From contig JAICNG010000033.1 of NCBI GenBank assembly GCA_025931335.1, positions 1-34,667 of the forward strand: DNA of 34,667 bases, read 5' to 3'. A program made the position numbers and the translations under genes. The stretch is from Gemmatimonadaceae bacterium (lineage in GTDB: Bacteria; Gemmatimonadota; Gemmatimonadetes; Gemmatimonadales; Gemmatimonadaceae). Of this stretch, positions 1-1,372 are shown in pieces. The notes beneath the pieces are model-generated. The model was not told where the DNA came from. It worked only from the letters and a program-made list of their open reading frames with translations, and did not search any database. Position 1 is the first letter of the stretch. Each line of letters begins with the position of its first letter.

Positions 1-612
1 CACCTCGAGTGTCTCGAGGTCGCGGCTGTTGACGCCGACGAGCCTCGCTTGTGCATTCATCGCGGTGTGAAGCTCATCGTCCGTTCGCACCTCGATCAAC
101 GGCTCCAGCCCCCAGTCGCGTGCGACGTCGGCGAGGGCGACGAGATCCGCCGGCGGAAGCGCGCGCGCGATCAACAACACCGCCGATGCGCCCCACGCGC
201 GCGCCTCGATGATCTGCATCTCGTCGACGATGAAGTCCTTTCGCAGCACCGGGACGTTCACCGCATCGCGCACCTTCGTCAGGTCCTCACCACTTCCCGC
301 GAAGTGCGTCGGCTCGGTGAGCACCGAGATCGCCGCCGCTCCCCCTCGCTCGTACTCGCGGGCGTGTGACGCGGGATCGAGCCGCGCGTTGATGTCACCA
401 CGCGACGGTGACCGCCGCTTCACTTCCGCGATGAGTCTGACCCGGTCCCCGCGAAGCGCGGCGAAGAAATCGGGCGCGACCTCGGCCGCTCGAGCCCGAA
501 TTTCGAGGTCCGAGCGCCGGCCGCGTGCCGTCGCGACCCGTCTGCTCGTCTCGTGTATGATCCGGCCGAGGACACCGGTCGGTGGGACCCATTTGGCGGG
601 AAATGCTTGCAC
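1..612 (-). CDS. trpC: Indole-3-glycerol phosphate synthase, 3' part cut off by window edge
   Basis: This enzyme closes the indole ring in tryptophan synthesis, converting CdRP (1-(2-carboxyphenylamino)-1-deoxyribulose 5-phosphate) to indole-3-glycerol phosphate. About 204 residues are visible and the C-terminal part of the TIM barrel lies outside the window. Family motifs read in order: LIAEVKRRSPSRG (E63, K65), SVLTEPTHFAGS near 97-107, VPVLRKDF with K125, EPLIEV with E174, and GVNSRDLE near 193-200. The chosen start is GTG at 612; no in-frame ATG gives a longer plausible N-terminus and no strong Shine-Dalgarno is seen, so the start is uncertain. The gene is divergent from lexA with about 90 bp between starts. 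trpD lies on the same strand upstream but is separated from it by lexA. Confidence 0.93.
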   Translation of the reverse strand, partial: MQAFPAKWVPPTGVLGRIIHETSRRVATARGRRSDLEIRARAAEVAPDFFAALRGDRVRLIAEVKRRSPSRGDINARLDPASHAREYERGGAAAISVLTEPTHFAGSGEDLTKVRDAVNVPVLRKDFIVDEMQIIEARAWGASAVLLIARALPPADLVALADVARDWGLEPLIEVRTDDELHTAMNAQARLVGVNSRDLETLEV

Positions 613-654
613 TTCGGCGATTGTTCGGCTAATGTCTATTCGGGCTCTTTTCGG
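613..654. promoter_or_regulatory. Four TTCGG direct repeats between trpC and lexA, candidate operator
   Basis: The pentamer TTCGG occurs at 613, 624, 639 and 650, all in the same orientation. The start-to-start spacings are 11, 15 and 11 bp. The first pair reads CTTC-N7-GTTC at 612-626, one base from the GTTC-N7-GTTC direct repeat known as the LexA box of Alphaproteobacteria. The second pair reads ATTC-N7-TTTC at 638-652. A one-helical-turn period suits a dimeric regulator. That LexA binds here is inference. The pentamers are short and GC-rich, and no convincing -35/-10 pair was found to anchor them. Confidence 0.3.
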
Positions 655-1310: not shown

Positions 1311-1332
1311 CACAGCTTCGAAGGCAGGAATG

Positions 1333-1372
1333 AGGAGTGAGGAAGTTGATTCCTTGCTCCTCACTCCTTTTT
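1333..1372 (+). terminator. Intrinsic terminator of lexA
   Basis: An 11-bp perfect stem (1333-1343 pairing with 1358-1368) is followed by five T on the plus strand (1368-1372), 22 bases after the lexA stop. The right arm also contains the stop codon of the convergent trpD. On the minus strand no T-run follows the stem, so it should act mainly on lexA. Confidence 0.85.

Follow-up and report, generated by a model that had tools for sequence, protein, structure and literature searches.

Paired TTCGG direct repeats upstream of lexA are putative LexA operators in Gemmatimonadota

We analyzed a 34,667-nucleotide stretch of DNA from a Gemmatimonadaceae bacterium (contig JAICNG010000033.1), hereafter the window, which opens with trpC, lexA and trpD and with a repeat array between the first two genes (Table 1). 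A preliminary description made from the DNA letters had named the flanking genes trpC (indole-3-glycerol phosphate synthase) and lexA, and both names are confirmed. The LexA protein of the window scores above the cut-off for both PF01726 and PF00717 and aligns over its whole length with LexA chains of solved structure, and its AAG, GNSM and TVKK stretches align with the Ala-Gly cleavage site and the catalytic serine and lysine of those chains, identifying it by sequence as a LexA repressor family member that keeps its putative self-cleavage residues. The gene order is widely shared: at 66 of 70 loci trpC is divergent from lexA, and at all 30 loci whose flanks reach far enough trpD lies downstream of lexA in antiparallel orientation, so that lexA lies reversed between trpD and trpC. 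A trpD–trpC transcript would run antisense to lexA.

Table 1. Features at the start of the window
Feature	Positions	Strand	Basis
trpC, cut by the window edge; divergent from lexA	1–612	−	IGPS match; candidate GTG start at 612
TTGCAC, read as lexA promoter −35	607–612	+	Conservation; weak consensus match
Putative LexA box O1, TTCGG-N6-TTCGG, within the promoter spacer	613–628	+	Sequence, conservation; predicted function
TAATGT, read as lexA promoter −10	630–635	+	Reading from conservation
Putative LexA box O2, TTCGG-N6-TTCGG, on or beside the expected transcription start	639–654	+	Sequence, conservation; predicted function
lexA, ATG at 702, 202 aa	702–1310	+	Pfam LexA_DNA_bind and Peptidase_S24
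Terminator-like hairpin with T tail, 3′ of lexA	1331–1363	+	1 found vs 0.6 expected in shuffles; weak alone
trpD, antiparallel, downstream of lexA	1361–2512	−	Protein family match

In the window sequence the word TTCGG stands at 613–617, 624–628, 639–643 and 650–654. The preliminary description had reported four copies in 42 bases with 11/15/11 spacing (starts 613, 624, 639 and 650) and a CTTC-N7-GTTC pair, which occupies 612–626, and each of these details is exact. In a GC-rich genome a common pentamer might cluster by chance, which would be in keeping with the frequency of TTCGG in the window, where the word is not over-represented (80 found vs 87 expected), and with simulations in which clusters of this kind built from any pentamer averaged 0.8 per simulated window (n = 40) vs 6 in the real window. 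In 300 first-order Markov windows of equal length, neither four TTCGG words within 42 bp nor two 11-bp TTCGG pairs within 40 bp arose even once. Because any-pentamer clusters do arise in simulation, a single window cannot settle the role of chance, and conservation across loci does. The earlier caution that so short a pentamer might recur by accident was therefore sound for one window but lapses once lexA loci are compared, as the box is kept at every lexA locus read and recurs at recA and at an imuB-like gene, and we consider a chance origin extremely improbable.

We read 100 lexA regions across the phylum, comprising 70 loci of the same order (54 from the family of the window and 16 from families f2 and f3, with 23 further f2/f3 lexA matches left out), 20 from other families of the class, and 10 individually chosen loci, five of them from f10, another class of Gemmatimonadota. 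LexA of the window was matched in 98 of 99 genomes and in 197 of 200 genomes of the phylum, two sets that overlap. At least one TTCG[GC]-N6-TTCG[GC] box lies within 250 bp upstream of lexA in 100 of 100 regions, and two boxes lie there in 93; by the strict TTCGG form, two boxes are present at 64 of the 70 loci of the order. The seven loci with fewer than two boxes are L056, L068, L335, L352, L353 and the f10 loci L358 and L359, in both of which the second box ends in TTCGT. The repeats are strongly directional, with TTCGG found 401 times in the 100 upstream regions vs 25 times for its reverse complement, and none of these regions contains GAAC-N4-GTTC or CTGT-N8-ACAG. The base 5′ of TTC is variable, and exact GTTC-N7-GTTC is found in just 9 of 100. 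Within a box the half-site period is constantly 11, and of 64 inter-box distances 43 are 26 or 27 bp, the others being 24, 25, 28, 32, 36 or 37 bp. A fixed period inside the box and a varying distance between boxes argue for two independent operators rather than one phased array, and the earlier picture of a phased array of four accordingly keeps its 11-bp spacing and gives way, as a single array, to two separate 16-bp boxes.

The upstream box occupies a particular place in the presumed lexA promoter. O1 exactly fills the 17-bp spacer separating TTGCAC and TAATGT, and an order of TTG, box and then a TAnnT or TAnnnT hexamer recurs at 92 of 100 lexA loci. A sigma-70 consensus scan of the window called no promoter at the lexA array at its threshold, the hexamers being weak matches, and the promoter assignment therefore rests on conservation. 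The exact fit of O1 in this spacer, together with imuA boxes and many recA boxes that adjoin or overlap promoter-like hexamers, could be taken to mean that the boxes are core promoter or other transcription-conserved elements rather than operators. Promoter spacers are not normally conserved in sequence, however, and O2 lies outside the hexamers; moreover, the genome of the window has 14 boxes, far fewer than its promoters, and promoters of a second LexA-like gene, lexA2, lack the box. We judge a promoter-element origin very unlikely.

Conservation extends to other promoters expected in an SOS regulon. The assembly of the window genome lacks recA, and this gene was therefore examined in relatives, of which 89 genomes scored above the cut-off and 50 were read (the 30 best-scoring and 20 picked from other families). 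All 50 recA loci read, which belong to the same order, have TTCG-N7-TTCGG upstream, including 20 of 20 in families f2 and f3. The full TTCGG-N6-TTCGG form is present at 23 of 50, and the imperfection of more than half of the recA boxes counts against reading them as LexA operators. In the family of the window the recA box is mostly TTCGTANTTTNTTCGG, and TTGNNN-N16-18-TA.TTT fits 25 of 30 recA loci, an arrangement in which the final base of the first half-site apparently also belongs to the −10 element. A search of 106,276 bp around recA on both strands returned no 11-bp direct-repeat box. A box, mostly with a T-rich N6, also precedes an imuB-like gene at 25 of 30 loci, a count that includes four weak matches (L143–L146), one with the box and three without. 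The imuB-like protein has an IMS_C domain, and the frame upstream, a weak RecA-domain match below the cut-off, is read as imuA. The preliminary description had proposed that conservation at lexA orthologues and copies at other SOS promoters would be telling, and the counts at lexA (100/100), recA (50/50, in relatives) and the imuB-like gene (25/30) support its suggestion that this lineage uses a direct-repeat SOS operator.

Genome-wide, the box is enriched over a reversed control pattern, with 14 matches vs 1 in the genome of the window and 1,493 vs 382 across 99 genomes, where it exceeds the control in 97 and equals it in 2; this control is imperfect, and some of the 1,493 are clearly chance matches. 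Boxes common to this genome and its congener G001 stand ahead of lexA, imuA-imuB, ruvB, gyrB, a 219-aa gene of no known family and a small gene near a Rad52-like gene. The gyrB box is present at 15 of 28 readable loci, comprising 15 of 21 in the family of the window and 0 of 7 in f2, from 30 loci read of 58 matching genomes, two of the 30 being unreadable. To our knowledge, SOS control of gyrB would be unusual. A radical SAM gene is preceded by a box in G001 and in a second genome, G023, and this class of gene is reported to be SOS-regulated in other bacteria (PMC8565304, PMC7739468).

Several further boxes have neighbors of less obvious function. One shared box (L076) precedes the 219-aa protein (positions 1496–2152 of locus L076), which has no Pfam match and is followed by a gene that is weakly sigma-factor-like, below the cut-off; an S24 peptidase-like match lies about 1.9 kb from this box. 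Another, noted at locus L302 (positions 454–1500 of that locus, minus strand) and at L074, stands at the start of a small frame beside a gene assigned by Pfam, in the congener, to the Rad52/Rad22 family. Shared boxes also fall in the gap between a protein kinase gene and an NADH-dehydrogenase-like gene (L086/L290) and within or close to a gene for a penicillin-binding protein (L078/L300), with no obvious repair gene at either, and a box near an RND permease gene in the genome of the window (L077) is absent from the matches in the congener.

A change of half-site in one lineage points to the protein that reads the box. In f10, where window-type LexA is present in 5 of 6 genomes, the lexA half-sites are TTCGC (18 of 20) or TTCGT (2 of 20) in the same layout as other lexA promoters, with TTGACT before the first box in 5 of 5, TATAAT after it in 4 of 5 and TAGAAT in the fifth; the first box starts 66–82 bp ahead of the start codon in three genomes, and at distances of 166 and 200 bp in the other two. 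Residue 44, in the LexA recognition helix, is lysine in 5 of 5 f10 proteins and glutamate in 94 of 94 readable others (LexA of L056 is cut by a contig end and its recognition helix is unreadable). This residue aligns with Glu45 of E. coli LexA, which is listed as a DNA contact (PMC3091678). Glutamate can accept a hydrogen bond from the cytosine opposite G and lysine can donate one to the guanine opposite C, a chemistry that would suit the two half-sites. That TTCGC and Lys44 change together points to LexA itself as the reader; the change from TTCGG to TTCGC is one event in one lineage, in which LexA helix positions 36 and 39 also differ. Elsewhere in f10, a umuDC-like operon (S24 peptidase and IMS polymerase) in one genome has a TTCGC box. 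Two observations in f10 count against the LexA reading: visual inspection of about 260 bp upstream of recA showed no box at any of 4 loci, and TTCGC-N6-TTCGC is not enriched genome-wide (40 matches vs 40 control).

Together, these observations lead us to interpret the TTCGG words as a pair of direct-repeat LexA operators that govern lexA and an SOS regulon, a reading to which we assign a probability of about 0.93 from comparative sequence evidence. Each operator would be TTCGG-N6-TTCGG, with half-sites 11 bp apart, about one helical turn. A point against this reading is that a symmetric LexA dimer could engage a direct repeat only by rotating one of its domains. LexA on O1 would sit between the −35 and −10 elements of its own promoter and LexA on O2 would cover the start region, so that two LexA dimers per promoter may account for lexA autorepression. 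DNA damage would then lift repression through RecA-stimulated self-cleavage of LexA, and the same box would bring recA, imuA-imuB, ruvB and the radical SAM repair gene into a single inducible regulon, which in one family would also include gyrB.

Conservation of position alone does not name the bound protein, and the boxes could instead serve another damage regulator, such as the LexA-like paralog lexA2 or a PafBC-like activator, with LexA reading something else. In the family of the window, 49 of 59 genomes do carry at least two LexA-like matches. Yet 37 of 40 genomes of families f2 and f3 have at most one LexA-like match, and in these families the box is kept at lexA (16 of 16 loci read) and recA (20 of 20), the promoters of lexA2 have no box of their own (0 of 20 read), the TTCGC change accompanies a change at a DNA-contact position of window-type LexA, and a site in the −35/−10 spacer suits a repressor. 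We regard a different regulator as unlikely and favor LexA as the protein that binds the boxes. In the genome of the window, lexA2 lies 3′ of a glutamyl-tRNA-synthetase-like frame (named by eye), and relatives of it occur in most genomes of the family.

A broader formulation, in which the phylum has its own direct-repeat operator, almost all f10 half-sites have gone from G to C at their final base together with Glu-to-Lys at residue 44, and one family has recruited gyrB, is one we hold tentatively and at somewhat less than even odds. LexA may in addition gate trpC. A candidate GTG start for trpC falls right at the array edge at 16 of 29 loci with a frame found, and 10 of 29 have no start codon outside the array; in the window the candidate GTG overlaps the lexA −35 element. 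Any trpC promoter between the two genes would adjoin the boxes or overlap them, so that LexA bound there could also control trpC, an extension suggested by position that we consider possible and rather doubtful.

Matches in other contigs place the double box beside lexA in related bacteria. A double-box scan matched at least 120 stretches, of which 80 were read. Fifteen of these carry Gemmatimonad or Longimicrobiales titles, and in 12 of the 15 lexA adjoins the box; among the matches listed, these 12 are titled Gemmatimonadetes, Gemmatimonadales, Gemmatimonadaceae, Gemmatimonas or Longimicrobiales, and the closest LexA proteins, at 80.6 and 79.2% identity, are both from Gemmatimonadaceae. The other three so titled (L158, L214 and L218) and the remaining stretches read have no LexA match in the retrieved DNA. 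Among those listed, most non-Gemmatimonad double-box matches are 11-bp units repeated four times in tandem (96 matches have a 6-base gap). Seven stretches from genomes with Bacteroidota names (L148, L154, L173, L188, L194, L199 and L223) carry TTCGG in tandem repeats of 11 bp arranged head to tail, and their retrieved DNA has no LexA match.

LexA boxes are known to change between phyla, with 17 motifs counted in one account (PMC8565304), and the comparison of about one hundred species adds a phylum with a direct repeat. We found no earlier description of a LexA box of Gemmatimonadota in the titles and abstract openings of the open-literature papers listed for LexA and the SOS response in this phylum and for LexA with this word, subscription papers being outside this scope; direct-repeat LexA boxes are already known in other groups, and the box of this phylum is apparently newly described here. 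The correspondence of Glu or Lys at residue 44 with TTCGG or TTCGC provides a one-residue, one-base prediction and, if true, a natural and readable case of a repressor and its operator changing together, and the boxes at gyrB raise the possibility of an SOS-controlled gyrase gene.

The alphaproteobacterial LexA box stands at lexA and recA, as does the box here, and the recognition helix found here, ATVHEH, differs from the alphaproteobacterial helix. The two operators are alike in being direct repeats built on a TTC core with half-sites 11 bp apart, the alphaproteobacterial form being reported as GTTC-N7-GTTC (PMC3323433, PMC8565304). They differ in that here TTCGG or TTCGC is the constant word, the 5′ G varies and two boxes are the rule at lexA; the 11-bp direct repeat is thus shared, whereas GTTC on both sides is not. 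A paper on Acidobacterium capsulatum reportedly ties an alphaproteobacterial-type box to Acidobacteria. The LexA helix of B. subtilis has TVH, like the helix here. In Firmicutes and Actinobacteria the reported box is GAAC-N4-GTTC (PMC3323433), whose half-site GTTC(G) resembles TTCG when taken in one direction, although theirs is inverted and ours direct. The inverted form, as given above, is absent from all lexA upstream regions read in this phylum. Synechocystis LexA is not known to target the SOS genes. The preliminary description held that other phyla use palindromes, a view now outdated, as a direct repeat CTA-N9-CTA has been proposed for the Synechocystis LexA ortholog (PMC3091678) and a direct repeat, TTACACATATTTTWTACATA, is reported with gel shifts for Balneolaeota (PMC7739468). 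The Synechocystis repeat differs from the TTCGG box in both half-site and period. The Balneolaeota box differs in half-site and resembles the Gemmatimonadota box in being a direct repeat, one that controls lexA and recA as well as translesion polymerases and a radical SAM gene (PMC7739468).
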